Shown here piece by piece: positions 11,165-32,391 of a DNA stretch of 54,040 nt. The position numbers were made by a program, and so were the translations under genes. The DNA is from an uncultured Cytophagaceae bacterium. GTDB taxonomy: Bacteria > Bacteroidota > Bacteroidia > Cytophagales > Spirosomataceae. The stretch spans positions 1 through 54,040 of the forward strand of contig CAIVPF010000061.1 in assembly GCA_903907745.1 (NCBI GenBank). Reading direction: 5' to 3'. Below the pieces are notes generated by a model. That model was not told the DNA's origin. It ran no database searches and was given only the letters and a program-made list of their open reading frames with translations. Position 1 is the first letter of the stretch. The number at the start of each line of letters is the position of its first letter.

Positions 11165-11186
11165 GAGTTTTCAGCGCTAAAAACTC
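11165..11186 (-). other. Hairpin between the TPP aptamer and the receptor start
   Basis: On the minus strand GAGTTTT and AAAACTC form a 7-bp stem with an 8-base loop (TAGCGCTG), 8 bases downstream of the aptamer core. No U-run follows it in the sense direction, so it is not an ordinary terminator. It could belong to the expression platform. Confidence 0.4.
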
Positions 11187-11193
11187 GACAAAA

Positions 11194-11261
11194 TCCCTTC
11201 GACGGCATTACCCGTATCAGGTTCAATGGGTATAATCTCAGCCTTTTTCACGAGGCACCCC
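11194..11261 (-). promoter_or_regulatory. TPP riboswitch (THI element)
   Basis: The minus strand contains the conserved core in order: GGGGTGCC (from 11261), GGCTGAGAT, ACCC, TTGAACCTGAT, CGGGTAATGCC and GAAGGGA (to 11194). This is the full thiamine-pyrophosphate aptamer without a P3 extension. It lies about 110 bases upstream of the TonB receptor start. TPP binding would lower expression of the receptor. How it acts (transcription or translation) is not obvious, because no terminator with a U-run is seen after it. Confidence 0.96.
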
Positions 11262-11275
11262 TTTTTGTGGATGCA

Positions 11276-25815: not shown

Positions 25816-26604
25816 TTAAGCTAAACCCTTGATACCCTTCACAAATGCCACCACTTCCGAACGAATATCCTTTGCCTGACCCACTAATTTCACAAAGGCA
25901 CTTCCAATAATCGCCCCTGACGCACCTTTCGATGCCTTTAAAAAACTCGCCCGATCCGATATACCAAAACCCACCAATCGTGGATTCTTCAAGTCCATTC
26001 CCTCTATCCGCTCAAAATACGCCTCCTGATCAGACGAAATCCCCGTCTTAGCCCCAGTCGTACTCGCCGAAGAAACCATGTAAATAAATCCCTCACTCAC
26101 CGAGTCAATCTGTCGAATACGCTCATCCGAAGTCTGTGGCGTGATCAAAAAGATATTAAACAAGCCATAACGCTCAAAAATCGCCTTGTATTCCCGCTCA
26201 TATTCCGCCATCGGTAAATCAGGTAATATCAATCCATCCACACCCACCTCATTGCATTTTTGGCAAAAACGCTCTACCCCAAACTGCAAGACCGGATTTA
26301 TATACCCCATCAAAAGTACAGGAACCTGAATTTTAGACCGCATATCGGCCAATTGATCAAATAATTTCGCCACCGTCATCCCCTGATCCAATGCCGACTG
26401 GTTCGATTGCTGAATCGTTTCCCCATCCGCCACCGGATCCGAATAAGGCATCCCAATCTCAATAATATCCACACCGCCTTCCTGCAATGCCTCCAACACC
26501 TCCATCGTATCCCCAAAACCAGGATATCCCGCCGTCGTATATACATTTAAAATCGGACCCTGCGCCGACTGAAAAACCTCCGTAATTCGATTCATCTTAG
26601 TCAT
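25816..26604 (-). CDS. trpA: Tryptophan synthase alpha subunit
   Basis: A 262-residue TIM-barrel enzyme that splits indole-3-glycerol phosphate to indole and glyceraldehyde 3-phosphate in the TrpA2B2 complex. The catalytic Glu and Asp are in [16 protein letters not shown], and the phosphate site segments GFGISD and [11 protein letters not shown] are present. It is the last gene of the operon and overlaps trpB by 8 bp. A second in-frame ATG (MNRI) lies three codons in. Confidence 0.97.
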
Positions 26605-27799
26605 TCAATTTTAATCTTTTTTGATACGTCGCCAAATCCTTATCCCCACGGCCCGATAAATTAATCACCACCACCTCATCCGCCCCCGCACCTAATTTTC
26701 CCAAAACCGCAAATGCATGCGCAGATTCCAAAGCCGGAATGATCCCTTCCAATCTCGAACATTCTACCGCCCCTTCCAAAGCCTCCTCATCCGTAATATC
26801 ATAAAATTTCGCCCGACCCGATGTCGCCAAATGCGCGTGCATCGGCCCAATACCCGGATAATCCAATCCCGCCGAAATCGAATACGGTTCTATCACCTGA
26901 CCATCCTCCGTTTGCATCAACAAACTCTTACTTCCATGCAATACCCCCGGTTTCCCCAAAAATGTCGTCGCCGCCGAATGTCCCGTCGAAACACCCTGAC
27001 CCGCCGCCTCCGCCGCAATCAAAGCCGTCCGAGGTTCATCCAAATAATGATAAAAGGCCCCCGCCGCATTCGATCCACCTCCCACACATGCAATCACATA
27101 ATCCGGATAATCCCGACCCTCCTTTTCCATTAATTGCACTTTGATTTCCTCAGAAATCACCGATTGAAACTTCGCCACCATATCCGGATAAGGATGCGGC
27201 CCCACCACCGAACCGATGATGTAATGCGTATCCACCGGATGATTGATCCAATGCCGCATCGCCTCATTCGTCGCATCTTTTAAGGTCTGGGAACCCGATT
27301 TTGCCGCCACCACTTCGGCGCCCAACATCCGCATCCGCGCCACATTCGGCGCCTGACGCTCAATATCAATCGCCCCCATATACACAATACATTCCATGCC
27401 CATTAAGGCACAAACCGTTGCCGTAGCCACTCCATGCTGCCCCGCACCCGTTTCTGCCACAATTTTATGTTTCCCCAAACGCTTCGCGACCAAAATCTGA
27501 CCAATCGTATTGTTCACCTTGTGCGCACCCGTATGGCATAAATCCTCTCGCTTTAAATAAATATTCGTACCGTATTTGGCCGACAAACGCTCCGCCTTAA
27601 ACAAGGGCGTAGGCCGACCCACATAATCCTTCAGCAAAGCATGAAATTCTGCCTGAAACGCAGGATCCGACATAATTTTCAAATAATTTTGCCGCAATTC
27701 CTCTACATTCGGGTACAACATCTCCGGAATAAATGCCCCTCCAAAATCCCCATAATAACCCTCCTCATTCACATGAAACGATAATGACTCCTGTATCAT
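26597..27799 (-). CDS. trpB: Tryptophan synthase beta subunit
   Basis: A 400-residue PLP enzyme (TrpB1 type) that joins indole and serine to make tryptophan. The PLP lysine is in the signature [15 protein letters not shown], the phosphate-binding glycine loop is [10 protein letters not shown], and the catalytic-loop ETGAGQHG is present. Start and length are standard. It overlaps trpF by 4 bp and trpA by 8 bp, consistent with coupled synthesis of the two subunits. Confidence 0.98.
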
Positions 27800-28410
27800 A
27801 ATGCTATTTTTTTTGCAATGTCCTTTATTTTTTCCAAATCCTTAAGCCCCGGCTGAATCTCCAAACGACTATTAAAATCCAAACCCGCCAACGGGCATTT
27901 TGTTCTCAATTCCATCGCCTCCACCATATTTTCCCCCGAAATACCCCCCGCTAAAAAAAACGGAACCTTCGACGAATAAGCCTTTAAAATCGACCAATCA
28001 AATCGTTCCCCCGTTCCACCTACTTGTGAGCCCTTTTTCGTATCCAATAAATAATAATCAGGCGCCCCTTGTAAGGCCAACAAATCCCCTTCCTCCGCCA
28101 CCGACACCGCTTTAATCACACCCAGACCAGCCCTTTTCAAAGCCTCTATAGCTGAATCACCCTCCTCCCCATGTAATTGAACCCACCTAAATCCAGCATG
28201 TTCAGCCATCGCGATAATCCGCTCCACCGTTTCATTCACAAAAACCCCAACCGCCTGCGTCGCTCCTAACAAATCCACCGGAATGACAAAATCCTTTCCC
28301 ACATAACGCGGCGATTTTTCCACAAAAATAAAACCCATAAAATCAGGCTTGCATGCCGCCACCGCCGCTATATTCGCTCGCTCCCGCATGCCACAAACCT
28401 TCCATTTCAT
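27796..28410 (-). CDS. trpF: Phosphoribosylanthranilate isomerase
   Basis: A 204-residue TIM-barrel isomerase converting phosphoribosylanthranilate to CdRP. The general-base Cys is in [14 protein letters not shown] and the catalytic Asp in [28 protein letters not shown] forms the phosphate site. It is a separate gene, not fused to trpC. It is 4 bp from trpC and overlaps trpB by 4 bp. Confidence 0.96.
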
Positions 28411-28414
28411 CCGC

Positions 28415-29200
28415 CTATTGATTTAAAAATGAGGTCAGAGCCCTCCCAGGATCCTCCGTTTTCATAAAACTCTCCCCAATCAAAAATCCCCGGTAGCCAT
28501 AGGATTTCAAATCCTTAATCACCTCCGGCCCCGAAATACAACTCTCTGAAACCTTCACAAATCGAGCAGGGATCTTTTCCGACAATCGCTTCGACGCCTC
28601 CACATTTTGCTCCGAAAAATTCTTCAAATTCCGATTATTCACCCCCACCACCGATATATAATCCCCCAAACTACGTTCCAACTCCTCCTCATCATGCACC
28701 TCCAACAAGGTCTCCATCCCCAAACTCCGCGCCAAAGTCCCCAACACCTCTATCTCCCTCGGACTCAAAGCCGCCGCAATCAACAAAATCACATCCGCCC
28801 CCATCGACTTCGCCTCCACAACCTGGTATTCATCCACCATAAAATCCTTACGCAACATCGGCGTATTCGGATTCGTCCGACGTGCCAAGTCAAAATCAGC
28901 CGCCGTTCCCCCAAAATACACTTCATCCGTCAGCACCGACAAACAAGCCGCACCCGCCACCACATAGCCCCTCGTCACTTCATCCACCCCCAAACGATCA
29001 TTAATGACCCCCTTCGAAGGCGATTTACGCTTAAATTCAGCAATGATGCCAGTAGAAGCCGGCTGCACCAAAGACATCGTCAGCGCATGACATGTCCGCG
29101 CAAAATATCCCAACTTCTCTAAGGCCCCCATCGACACCTTTTCCTTCGCCTTCGCTACCTCCAAACGCTTCGTCGCTACAATTTGTTCTAATATATTCAT
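28415..29200 (-). CDS. trpC: Indole-3-glycerol phosphate synthase
   Basis: A 261-residue TIM-barrel enzyme closing the indole ring. The catalytic lysines are in IAEFKRKSPSKG and MLRKDFMVDEYQV, with VGVNNRNLKNF and SESCISGPE toward the C-terminus. It starts with MNILEQIVATKRLEVAKAK, the usual N-terminal extension of the family. It is the fourth gene of the operon, 21 bp after trpD. Confidence 0.97.
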   Translation of the reverse strand: MNILEQIVATKRLEVAKAKEKVSMGALEKLGYFARTCHALTMSLVQPASTGIIAEFKRKSPSKGVINDRLGVDEVTRGYVVAGAACLSVLTDEVYFGGTAADFDLARRTNPNTPMLRKDFMVDEYQVVEAKSMGADVILLIAAALSPREIEVLGTLARSLGMETLLEVHDEEELERSLGDYISVVGVNNRNLKNFSEQNVEASKRLSEKIPARFVKVSESCISGPEVIKDLKSYGYRGFLIGESFMKTEDPGRALTSFLNQ

Positions 29201-29221
29201 CTTATTTATGGCCTATTCCCC

Positions 29222-30211
29222 TTAATCCATAATGAACTTTTTGAAGGATTGGAATGCTTTTCCACTTTCCAAACTTTCTTTGGCCATCAAAATACCATCC
29301 GCCAAATTAGGCGCCTTTTCAGCGACCCAAAGTGCAGCTCCCGCATTTGCTAACACAGCTTGTGTTTGCGCGGGAGTTCCCTCCCTTTGCAAAATTTTAT
29401 ACATAATATCTGCCGATTGCGCCACAGTTTCCCCTCCGGAAAGTTCTGCCTGCGCAAAGGTATCAAAACCAATATCTGAGGGTTGATACGTTTTCAAGCC
29501 CCCCCTCGTCGAAATATCAAAGGGCGATGTCAACGAAATCTCATCGTAGCCATCCGCCGCATAGACAATCCCAAATTTCTTTTCGCTAGCCTCAAAAAAT
29601 CCACGGTATAAATCAAACACCTCCTTCGAATACACACCGGTCAATTGCTTCGTCACCTTCGCTGGGTTCAACAAAGGCCCCAACAAATTAAAAAAGGTCT
29701 TCATCCCCAATTCCTTCCGAATCGGTCCCACAAATCGCATTGCCGGATGAAACAAAGGCGCATGCAAGAAACAAATTCCTGCCGTCTCCATTTTCCGCCG
29801 AAGCACCTTCGGATCACTCGTAAACTTTAAACCCAAAAACTCCAATACCGTCGACGAGCCCACCGAGGAAGAAACCCCGTGATTACCATGCTTGGCCACT
29901 TTTTGACCCGCACCCACGATCACAAAAGACGATGTCGTACTAATGTTAAACGTATCCTTTCCATCCCCACCCGTGCCACACACATCCATTGCCTCAAATT
30001 CCGATAAATCCAAAGTCACCGCCAATTCCAACATCGCATCCACAAATCCAGTCAATTCCTGAACTTGAATCGGATGGTACCAATACGACGTTAAAAAAGC
30101 AGCAATTTGACTTGGATTTACTTCACCCCGCCCAATATTCAACATCACCTCTTTCGCCTTTTCAGAAGACAAAGCTTCCCCTTGCACTCTATTTTGTATA
30201 ATCGATTTCAT
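29222..30211 (-). CDS. trpD: Anthranilate phosphoribosyltransferase
   Basis: A 329-residue class IV phosphoribosyltransferase that transfers PRPP to anthranilate. The PRPP motif DVCGTGGDGKDTFNIST, the KHGNHGVSS segment and the anthranilate-site residues in NLLGPLLNPA are all present. It is not fused to trpG. It follows trpG by a 1-bp gap. Confidence 0.97.
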   Translation of the reverse strand: MKSIIQNRVQGEALSSEKAKEVMLNIGRGEVNPSQIAAFLTSYWYHPIQVQELTGFVDAMLELAVTLDLSEFEAMDVCGTGGDGKDTFNISTTSSFVIVGAGQKVAKHGNHGVSSSVGSSTVLEFLGLKFTSDPKVLRRKMETAGICFLHAPLFHPAMRFVGPIRKELGMKTFFNLLGPLLNPAKVTKQLTGVYSKEVFDLYRGFFEASEKKFGIVYAADGYDEISLTSPFDISTRGGLKTYQPSDIGFDTFAQAELSGGETVAQSADIMYKILQREGTPAQTQAVLANAGAALWVAEKAPNLADGILMAKESLESGKAFQSFKKFIMD

Positions 30212-30212
30212 C

Positions 30213-30782
30213 TTATTTCATCCAATTTTTAATCATTTGTAATCCATGCTCCGTCAAATAAGCCTCCGGGTGAAACTGCACCCCACGCACATCATACTTC
30301 GAATGGGCCTCCGCCAACACATTTCCGCCCGCATCCTCCGCCGTCACCTTTAATTCCAATGGCATCGTATCCGGCAAAACCGTCCACGAATGATAGCGAC
30401 ACACATCAAATCGAGAGGGAATATCCAAAAATAATTTCTCCTGCGGATCTTTGACGATACATTCCGTCGTCACGCCATGTAGCACTTCGCCCATGTTTTG
30501 CAGCGTCGAACCAAAAGCCTCCGCAATCGCCTGATGCCCTAAACAAACACCCAAAATCTTTTTACTCGTCTTATATTCCTTCAATAAATCCATCATAATC
30601 CCCGCCTCCGAAGGAATTCCAGGACCCGGCGAAAGCAAAATTTGATCATACGCATTCACCTCTTCCAACCTAATTTTATCATTGCGAAAGACGTCTACGT
30701 TGGCACCTAACTCTTTCAAGAGGTACACCAAATTGTACACAAACGAATCATAATTATCAATCACTAATACTTTCATGGCCAT
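30213..30782 (-). CDS. trpG: Anthranilate synthase glutamine amidotransferase component
   Basis: A 189-residue class I glutamine amidotransferase that feeds ammonia to TrpE. The nucleophile motif GVCLGHQAIAEAFG, the LSPGPGIPSEAG oxyanion strand and the His-Glu pair in GVQFHPEAYLTEHG are intact. The start may be this ATG or the one two codons later (MKVLVIDNYDSFVYN). It abuts trpE without a gap. It might also serve folate synthesis as PabA, as in some bacteria. Confidence 0.97.
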   Translation of the reverse strand: MAMKVLVIDNYDSFVYNLVYLLKELGANVDVFRNDKIRLEEVNAYDQILLSPGPGIPSEAGIMMDLLKEYKTSKKILGVCLGHQAIAEAFGSTLQNMGEVLHGVTTECIVKDPQEKLFLDIPSRFDVCRYHSWTVLPDTMPLELKVTAEDAGGNVLAEAHSKYDVRGVQFHPEAYLTEHGLQMIKNWMK

Positions 30783-32201
30783 TTATCCTAAGGTTTCTGC
30801 AACGTCTAAGGCACGTCGCAATGCCGCCAATTTATTATGTATTTCCTGCATTTCGCTCGCCACCACCGACTTCGCTACCACGCCCATACCCGCCTGTAAA
30901 AACAAAGTATTCCCCTTACTCAAAAAGGTACGAATCGCAATCGCATGGTTGAAATTTCCCGCGAAATCCATGAAGCCAATCGCCCCACCATATATCGCCC
31001 GGTTCGACGGTTCCAAGCGATTAATGATCGTCATCGCATTGTGCTTCGGCGCACCACTCAAAGTCCCCGCCGGAAATGTATCCGCCACCATTTGCAAAGG
31101 ATTCACACCCGCCTGCAAACGACCCGTCACCTTGGAAACCAAGTGTATCACGTGAGAGAAAAATTGAACTTCTTTGAACGTCTCCACATGCACCTCATCC
31201 GCACTGCGGCTCAAATCATTCCGCGCTAAATCCACCAACATCACATGCTCCGCCGATTCCTTCGGATCCGCAATCAAAGCCTTCGCTAATTCTGCATCCC
31301 GCGCATCATCGCCCGAGCGACGAAAAGTCCCCGCAATCGGGTGAATTTCCGCCACGTCCCCCTCAATCTTAATTTGCTTCTCCGGGGAAGCCCCGAAAAT
31401 CCGGTAATCCTCATAATCAAAATAGAACAAATACGGCGAAGGATTCACCGAACGCAAGGCCCGATACACCTGAAAATCATCCCCTTGAAAGGATTGGCTA
31501 AATCGGCGCGAAGGTACTATTTGGAACACATCCCCTCGCAAACAATGCTTGATACACGTTTCCACAATCGCCTTGGTTTCATCCTCCGTCAAATTACTCG
31601 TCTCTTCACCCACTCGGGAAAAGGCCGCCAGATCCACCGAAGGTTTTTGTAAAATCGTATTCGCTACATCCAACAAAGGCGAAGAATCATCGTAACTATG
31701 CGCGTACCAGGTCAACTGATTATTAAAATGATTCAAAGCCACCACATAGCGGTACACATAGTAACGAATGGATGGAATCTCCGTTTCAGGACTTTTCGCT
31801 TGGATATCGATGTCCTCAAAATACTGGACGGCATCGTAAGAAATATGTCCAAATAGGCCATTGGCCATCGGCGAATCTCCCTTTTCTTTGGTATATGAAA
31901 AGCGATCTGAAAAGTTTTTTAAGGCCTTAACCGCCTCTTTTTTATGAACTAAGGTAAAAGATTCCACATGCCCATCCGGAAAGGTCTGGGTAACAATGGA
32001 ATCATTCAGCACAAAACTCGCCACGGGATCGAAGGCCATGTGGGAGAAACCGTGCTCTCGGCCATGGTAATCCGCCGATTCCAAAATCACGGAGTTTTTA
32101 TAGGCGGAGCGAATCTTTAAGAAAATCCCGATCGGCGTCAGCGTATCCGCCAACATCATTTTTCGAGAAGTCTGAACCAGTATTTTTTGCGTCGTAGACA
32201 T
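30783..32201 (-). CDS. trpE: Anthranilate synthase component I
   Basis: A 472-residue chorismate-using enzyme that starts the pathway. The start is set at MSTTQKILVQTS; the longer frame upstream runs through the leader terminator hairpin. The tryptophan feedback motif is visible as VILESADYH, and the catalytic half has IVPSRRFSQ, IFGASPEKQIKI, HPIAGTFRRSGDD, LVDLARNDLSR and FPAGTLSGAPKHNAM. It is the first gene of trpEGDCFBA, led by a probable attenuator. Control therefore seems to be both by feedback and by transcription attenuation. Confidence 0.96.
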   Translation of the reverse strand: MSTTQKILVQTSRKMMLADTLTPIGIFLKIRSAYKNSVILESADYHGREHGFSHMAFDPVASFVLNDSIVTQTFPDGHVESFTLVHKKEAVKALKNFSDRFSYTKEKGDSPMANGLFGHISYDAVQYFEDIDIQAKSPETEIPSIRYYVYRYVVALNHFNNQLTWYAHSYDDSSPLLDVANTILQKPSVDLAAFSRVGEETSNLTEDETKAIVETCIKHCLRGDVFQIVPSRRFSQSFQGDDFQVYRALRSVNPSPYLFYFDYEDYRIFGASPEKQIKIEGDVAEIHPIAGTFRRSGDDARDAELAKALIADPKESAEHVMLVDLARNDLSRSADEVHVETFKEVQFFSHVIHLVSKVTGRLQAGVNPLQMVADTFPAGTLSGAPKHNAMTIINRLEPSNRAIYGGAIGFMDFAGNFNHAIAIRTFLSKGNTLFLQAGMGVVAKSVVASEMQEIHNKLAALRRALDVAETLG

Positions 32202-32227
32202 GTTTTTCAAAGGATAACAAAGGTAAT

Positions 32228-32259
32228 AAAAAAGGCTTACTGATGAACAGCAAGCCTTT
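32228..32259 (-). terminator. trp leader terminator (attenuator hairpin 3:4)
   Basis: On the minus strand AAAGGCTT (32259-32252) pairs with AAGCCTTT (32238-32231), with an inner CTG/CAG stem. The 3' arm runs into six T (32233-32228). It lies 27 bp before the trpE start and 45 bp after the leader peptide stop, which is the expected place for an attenuator rather than a gene-end terminator. Confidence 0.85.
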
Positions 32260-32312
32260 GTAAAACATATCATGTACACACAGCAAAACTGTTCAAGGAT
32301 GCATTACCCTTG
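32244..32312 (-). promoter_or_regulatory. trp attenuator: alternative 1:2 and 2:3 pairings
   Basis: On the minus strand CAAGG (32312-32308), which includes the codon after Trp, pairs with CCTTG (32298-32294): hairpin 1:2. TGAACAG (32295-32289) is a perfect complement of CTGTTCA (32250-32244), which forms the inner stem and loop of the terminator: pairing 2:3. The two pairings share bases 32294-32295 and exclude each other. A ribosome stalled at the Trp codon would cover arm 1, free arm 2 and break the terminator. The logic is that of classic ribosome-mediated attenuation; it is read from sequence only. Confidence 0.65.
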
Positions 32313-32345
32313 CCAACCGTTTTGTTTGTATGCTGCTTTTGTCAT
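32304..32345 (-). CDS. trpL: trp leader peptide
   Basis: A 13-codon reading frame MTKAAYKQNGWQG with ATG at 32345 and TAA at 32306-32304. It starts about 10-12 bases after the predicted transcript start. It has one Trp codon, third from the end, directly in front of the 5' arm of hairpin 1:2. This position, the promoter before it and the terminator after it fit a tryptophan-sensing leader peptide. A single Trp codon is fewer than in the enterobacterial leader. Confidence 0.7.
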   Translation of the reverse strand: MTKAAYKQNGWQG

Positions 32346-32361
32346 TTTGTTTAATTTGCTA

Positions 32362-32391
32362 CAAATGTAAAATGAAATCTTTTAAATCAAA
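32362..32391 (-). promoter_or_regulatory. Promoter of the trp operon
   Basis: On the minus strand TTTG (32391-32388), an 18-bp spacer and TACATTTG (32369-32362) fit the Bacteroidota consensus at all fixed positions. It lies at the end of the VOC gene (stop at 32395), 16 bp before the leader peptide ATG. Confidence 0.78.

Follow-up and report, generated by a model that had tools for sequence, protein, structure and literature searches.

The window analysed here is a 54,040-nt stretch of a 2.79-Mb draft assembly (92.9% complete) from an uncultured Cytophagaceae bacterium, for which the nearest named isolates found in the search belong to Aquirufa. Its minus strand carries the tryptophan operon trpEGDCFBA. 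The trpG, trpD, trpC, trpB, and trpA genes exceed an NCBIfam cut-off; trpF has trpF models as its best matches, at sub-cut-off scores, and trpE is best matched by TIGR00564 (trpE_most) at 407.5 bits, under the cut-off of 517.7. Elsewhere in the window, a TPP riboswitch is found at 11177-11272 of the minus strand (74.9 bits). Directly ahead of the operon, between positions 32390 and 32228, lies an apparent transcription attenuator, made up of the following elements:

32362..32390, minus strand: putative leader promoter, with TTG at 32390-32388, an 18-nt spacer, and the -7 box TACATTTG at 32369-32362
32304..32345, minus strand: leader ORF MTKAAYKQNGWQG of 13 codons, with ATG at 32345 and TAA at 32306-32304
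32313..32315, minus strand: TGG (Trp), the sole control codon, at the place of the 3'-most Trp in the WW or WWW run of relatives
32276..32333, minus strand: extended 1:2 hairpin, predicted by folding
32333-32327/32282-32276 and 32324-32319/32289-32284, minus strand: outer stems of 1:2
32312-32306/32300-32294, minus strand: inner stem of 1:2 (CAAGGGT/ATCCTTG), beginning at the codon directly 3' of Trp
32289..32295, minus strand: segment 2 (UGAACAG), predicted 5' side of the antiterminator, with segment 3 as partner
32244..32250, minus strand: segment 3 (CUGUUCA), predicted 3' side of the antiterminator, within the 5' arm and loop of the terminator
32228..32259, minus strand: 3:4 intrinsic terminator, with 12 pairs, a loop of 5, and six T at its end
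32218..32225, minus strand: TACCTTTG, possible -7 box of a second promoter between terminator and trpE, matching TAnnTTTG
30783..32201, minus strand: trpE
25816..30782, minus strand: trpG, trpD, trpC, trpF, trpB, and trpA, downstream of trpE

The leader ATG stands 16 nt from TACATTTG, and 17 nt separate the Trp codon from segment 2. The terminator hairpin itself spans 32259-32231, and its T run (32233-32228) consists of six T, three of which lie inside the stem. A preliminary description of this DNA had proposed a promoter, a 13-codon frame with one Trp codon, the pairings 1:2, 2:3, and 3:4, and a run of six T, all of which were found on the minus strand. It had also held that 1:2 and 2:3 exclude each other by sharing two bases. 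Two bases are indeed common to segment 2 and the inner 1:2 stem, and the exclusion was borne out with a greater overlap than claimed: the minimum-energy 1:2 hairpin begins within the leader frame, extends 13 nt beyond segment 2, and pairs six of the seven segment 2 bases. The folded leader has a z-score of -3.15.

The leader was compared with the DNA ahead of trpE in relatives. The search for TrpE covered 38 genomes of the genus (35 matched), 150 genomes of the family (148 matched), and the genomes of named species (78 loci, five of which, L027, L063, L066, L075, and L079, lacked the 5' end of trpE and were unused). From the 150 family genomes, 80 stretches were selected, the remainder including genus members and loci already among the named set. 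Together, the window, 73 named loci, and 80 family genomes gave 154 regions of 450 nt 5' of trpE (or as much as the contig held), and 150 distinct loci after removal of four same-contig duplicates (L084, L085, L086, and L160). The script accepted an ATG frame with Trp followed by a terminator within 10-130 nt.

A Trp leader and terminator hairpin precede trpE in 146 of the 150 distinct loci, 142 by script and four by eye. The latter are WWW leaders: the T run of the hairpin is poor in L096 and L098, GTG is the start codon in L101, and the stem of L074 is low in G+C. All 33 loci of the Aquirufa group have a frame with a Trp codon and a terminator (in L010 the script chose a different frame, and the leader was read by eye), and a 2:3 helix of 7-8 pairs is present in all 32 that were scored. 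Outside the family, as classed from record titles, 16 of 16 loci have such a leader. The conservation of frame and Trp codon that the preliminary description had named as a check is thus found in near and far relatives, and its proposal that the trp attenuation logic operates in the window gains strong comparative support. No Trp leader lies directly before trpE in L099, L102, L107, and L134, where by eye another coding frame seems to extend up to trpE. Two metagenome-assembled genomes, Flammeovirgaceae SZUA-230 and Bacteroidetes B34T3L8 (L064 and L065), appear by eye to carry two tandem leader-plus-terminator units before trpE, each with a WWW frame. In this Bacteroidota family, a trp attenuator of classical appearance is the rule before trpE.

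Further support comes from the pairing of the stems. Each stretch, anchored solely to the last Trp codon and the terminator, was folded with its own and with foreign partners in 124 distinct leaders (L010, L059, L064, and L152 were omitted here, as from the antiterminator probabilities and distance measurements below). For 1:2, own partners gave -23.4 kcal/mol and foreign partners -15.1, and for 3:4 the values were -20.8 and -12.8; for both stems, all 124 leaders pair better with their own partner than with the median foreign one. For 2:3, the energies were -14.2 and -10.8 kcal/mol, and the own partner won in just 93 of 124. Two leader comparisons used subsets, one of 43 of the 142 leader cores and one of 18 leader cores; a further alignment, A3, was kept out of the pair counts because it contains antisense terminator hits. 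In the 43-row alignment, 98.0% of the 3:4 cells are paired and five of 12 pairs have changed on both sides, above the shuffles of that stem, and 99.6% of the 2:3 cells are paired across 42 distinct sequences. In the nearer family, however, 2:3 varies solely via G-U, and every column shuffle equals the observed score. Over the wider set, changes in segment 2 are accompanied by changes in segment 3, as in GTCGTGA/TCACGAC, GATGAGCAA/TTGCTCATC, and GTCGTAAG/CTTACGAC, these helices being the best complement picked per leader. The group-only alignment has little variation and weak co-variation, with one pair changed on both sides. There, 90.0% of the outer and 85.7% of the inner 1:2 cells are paired; of the 17 distinct rows, seven lack two of the inner pairs, and a single row, that of the window, has one of the outer pairs. 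Co-variation in the three stems, another suggested check, is thus strong for 1:2 and 3:4 and less so for 2:3.

Folding models indicate how these parts could act as a switch. The free window RNA folds into 1:2 and then 3:4; if the 5' portion up to nt 45, which a ribosome on the Trp codon would cover, is deleted, 2:3 becomes the most stable fold for RNAs ending at nt 102-110 of the leader. In a thermodynamic model, the antiterminator probability of the window rises from 0.002 in the free RNA to 0.97 with a ribosome on the Trp codon. Across 138 leaders, the modelled medians are 0.03 free and 0.98 stalled, the latter value being in part a product of the method, which took the best complement as the helix; stalling gives a rise above 0.3 in 115 of the 138, and in 23 it does not. 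After segment 4 has been made, 3:4 is favoured even under a stalled ribosome; thus, the decision must be kinetic.

The stop codon ends 7-9 nt 5' of segment 2 in 32 of 32 Aquirufa-group leaders; it reaches segment 2 or further in 93 of 106 others. A ribosome positioned on the stop codon covers up to 12 nt past it, according to the accessible part of one report (PMC4833913), and 12 nt is the larger of the two footprints modelled. With a ribosome so placed, the modelled 2:3 probability is 0.49-0.87 in the window and, depending on the footprint assumed, 0.47-0.90 on average in the 32 group leaders, with a median of 0 over the 138 leaders. The group leaders would retain 2:3 because the stop codon ends short of segment 2, and with masking only partial, full termination probably needs ribosome release.

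The anatomy, the conservation, the co-variation of 1:2 and 3:4, and the switching models together make it very probable that the window leader is a ribosome-mediated transcription attenuator of the trpEGDCFBA operon. From these data we infer that the leader is translated, that ribosomes stall on it, and that it responds to tryptophan. Judging from the promoter box, RNA polymerase would start about 11-12 nt before the leader ATG. Where charged tRNA-Trp is present, the ribosome would complete the 13-codon leader and depart, 1:2 would re-form, segment 3 would be left free for segment 4, and transcription would stop. Where charged tRNA-Trp is short, the ribosome would stall at the one Trp codon and cover the 5' side of 1:2; segment 2 could then capture segment 3 before segment 4 is made, and transcription would enter trpE. 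With no translation, termination would be the default.

The preliminary description had considered a single Trp codon an unusual sensor. The trait is real; it is also derived, most relatives having two or three. Scored over its final three codon positions, the Trp run is WWW in 94 of the 146 leaders, NWW in 24, NGW in 12, and another triplet in 16. Three Trp codons are found in 94 of the 113 leaders beyond the Aquirufa group; within the group, 21 of 33 loci carry TGG TGG and 12 a single Trp. These 12 all fall in one clade (support 96/91), and a single change accounts for the trait on the trpE tree, as it does in 95% of 200 bootstrap trees. The single Trp codon, as reconstructed on that tree, is thus a shared derived trait of one Aquirufa clade. 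Its 12 loci also rule out a sequencing error as the cause. Gly-Trp is kept in all 12 members, where TGGTGG of the sister clades corresponds to GGTTGG in the window. The window and L014, which lie on opposite sides of the clade, are separated by a tree distance of 0.8 changes per column.

The codon kept in this clade stands at the position of the 3'-most Trp. In 32 leaders of the group, the gap from the last Trp to segment 2 measures 16-18 nt; in 106 others it is 11-21 nt. The idea that this codon was kept since a stall there masks 1:2 better found no support, as the modelled antiterminator probability is equal at all three positions (means 0.94-0.95). Elsewhere in the family, the first of three Trp codons has been replaced in L095, L104, L105, L108, L112, L113, L132, and L145, by GGT in seven and by AGT in L105; GGT likewise replaces a Trp codon in the window's clade. 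In L062, one of the 16 other triplets, the run is broken by Tyr (W-Y-W) and the last Trp retained. We tentatively suggest, as a reading somewhat short of probable, that in this clade of small-genome freshwater bacteria the attenuator has been pared from three Trp codons to two and then one, while its stop codon shifted to a place before segment 2; the result would be a one-codon sensor in which ribosome release, and not masking at the stop codon, governs termination. If true, the single-Trp leader would be a minimal working form of the trp attenuation switch. The three-two-one series in related species offers a natural experiment on the theory that attenuation owes its sensitivity to how many control codons there are.

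With one control codon, the leader might instead respond mainly to overall translation, that is, to initiation or ribosome supply, and little to tryptophan. The 1:2 and 3:4 folds of the free RNA would fit such a response, as would the modelled incomplete blocking of 2:3 by a ribosome at the stop codon; moreover, the accessible text of Elf and Ehrenberg has sensitivity fall when few codons of the control region are regulatory (PMC1183508). Against this, the single TGG is retained at a fixed place in all 12 clade members, and we regard a mainly translational response as unlikely. The same text describes a class of attenuators with two or more control codons (PMC1183508), a number that neither the window nor any of the 12 clade members reaches, each having one Trp. 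Two or more control codons are a usual feature of classical attenuators and are not demanded by the logic.

The leader promoter is conserved as well. In the Aquirufa group, TACATTTG is present at 33 of 33 loci, with TTG at 18 nt in 32. At the other 113 loci (including four same-contig duplicates), TAnnTTTG lies no more than 90 nt from the scored frame in 88, and 67 of these have TTG at 16-23 nt. Bacteroidota are not known to use Shine-Dalgarno initiation, and the preliminary description had called ribosome loading on a leader of 10-12 bases of interest. Such loading is made less puzzling by conserved adenines at the leader start of the group loci: A is found at -6 and -12 in 33 of 33, at -13 in 30, and at -3 in 27. 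Adenines at such positions promote initiation in Flavobacterium johnsoniae, according to the accessible part of PMC6847099, and TAnnTTTG is given as the Flavobacterium sigma-A -7 box in that of PMC9723704.

A match to the same box after the terminator raises the alternative that most trpE mRNA comes from a second promoter, TACCTTTG, and that the attenuator is vestigial or partial. TAnnTTTG occurs between terminator and trpE at 23 of 33 Aquirufa-group loci, compared with 4.5% of base-shuffled regions, although relatedness among the loci and a T-rich region keep these counts from being independent; in the window, TACCTTTG lies 16 nt from trpE, equal to the distance from leader box to ATG. However, the downstream box is missing at ten of the 33 loci, nine of them within the single-Trp clade, and occurs at only five of the 113 other loci. 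TTG is found 16-23 nt upstream for just seven of the 23 boxes, the window's not included. A vestigial attenuator, moreover, would not be expected to retain frame, stems, and promoter at such divergence. We therefore consider this account improbable, although the downstream box could supply attenuation-independent transcription of trpE, and transcripts beginning after the terminator, a refuting outcome in the preliminary description, may occur.

An added trans-acting role of the terminated leader RNA or its peptide, by analogy with Sinorhizobium peTrpL, has that precedent alone in its favour (available part of PMC7298713); the leader peptide varies widely across the family except for Trp, which makes such a role very improbable. 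The least likely account, a chance arrangement of parts around an ordinary terminator, draws on the 2:3 helix. When the sequence 5' of the terminator was shuffled (n=1000), 86 shuffles matched the 2:3 score, 41 gave the switching contrast, and four gave both; the 2:3 helix taken alone is weak evidence. As judged by sequence comparison, conservation, unlike that helix, settles the matter against chance: frame, Trp codon, and stems recur in relatives with co-varying partners, and among 770 dinucleotide-shuffled regions nine have one Trp and none has two adjacent Trp codons.

Control of trp by TRAP or a T-box was likewise rejected, as PF02081 has no match in the 92.9%-complete genome and a T-box is absent among the Rfam matches in the window. 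For TrpR, the Pfam model has one match in that genome, at 21.9 of 27 bits inside a 343-aa frame, and none over the cut-off. Other leaders were sought in the genome by a His-codon pattern with 15 matches; of the eight loci fetched, L165 and L167 have short ATG frames with HHHH, neither leader-like.

Attenuation of trp by ribosome stalling is an RNA switch of long-known type. The trpL leader of E. coli has two adjacent Trp codons and initiates with a Shine-Dalgarno sequence. The window leader resembles the enterobacterial attenuator in its four-segment logic, its Trp leader frame, and its terminator before trpE, and differs in having one Trp codon where trpL has two adjacent ones. It shares with classical attenuators a short frame, predicted to be translated, that includes end-product codons and precedes the biosynthetic operon and, in folding models, mutually exclusive antiterminator and terminator, with a stall on the control codon favouring the former. 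The Rfam model Trp_leader is not among the 12 matches to this region up to E = 10, all of which are under their gathering scores (one is Thr_leader, at 18.3 of 55 bits).

A closer relative is RF01692, described in Rfam as a Bacteroidete tryptophan peptide leader RNA and listed as Bacteroid-trp in the accessible text of Weinberg et al. 2010 (PMC2864571). The window leader resembles it in phylum, position upstream of trp genes, leader type, and shared structure. Nevertheless, RF01692 has no match at this leader, its gathering cut-off of 49 bits not being reached; therefore, the leader is not filed as a member of the present model. Although such leaders are the rule before trpE, this public model caught only ten of the 150 family genomes, six over the cut-off (with stricter filters, which lose weak matches), in each case within about 300 nt upstream of trpE. 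Leaders from the Aquirufa group (17) and from Sandaracinomonas (one) served to build a model of our own, R1. Twenty loci were scanned with RF01692 for positive leaders and 100, including same-contig duplicates, with R1. The latter recovers leaders across the family, including the RF01692-positive L055 (42 bits), L035 (39), and L049 (24), each before trpE; thus, all are taken as one structural lineage. In the window's genome, R1 has five further weak matches, one being the antisense strand of the window's terminator; three more, L172-L174, look by eye like terminators that have no leader. The RF01692-positive L055, L035, and L049 carry WWW, in contrast to the window with its one W and a stop before segment 2.

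Attenuation by leader peptides has been inferred for amino-acid operons of Flavobacterium psychrophilum on the basis of transcriptome and structure (PMC9723704; PMC6414381 for Bacteroid-Trp). These structured leaders likewise belong to Bacteroidota and to leader-peptide attenuation, and differ in that the available parts of those two articles mention no single-Trp leader. Within the literature searched (listings and accessible parts of open articles), no description of a single-Trp leader or an Aquirufa attenuator was found, nor a Bacteroidota trp case in the accessible part of PMC2965389. The window attenuator is thus not new in kind, as RF01692 and F. psychrophilum provide precedents in Bacteroidota. 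What is new is the single Trp codon of one Aquirufa clade and a stop codon placed 7-9 nt before segment 2 instead of in it.
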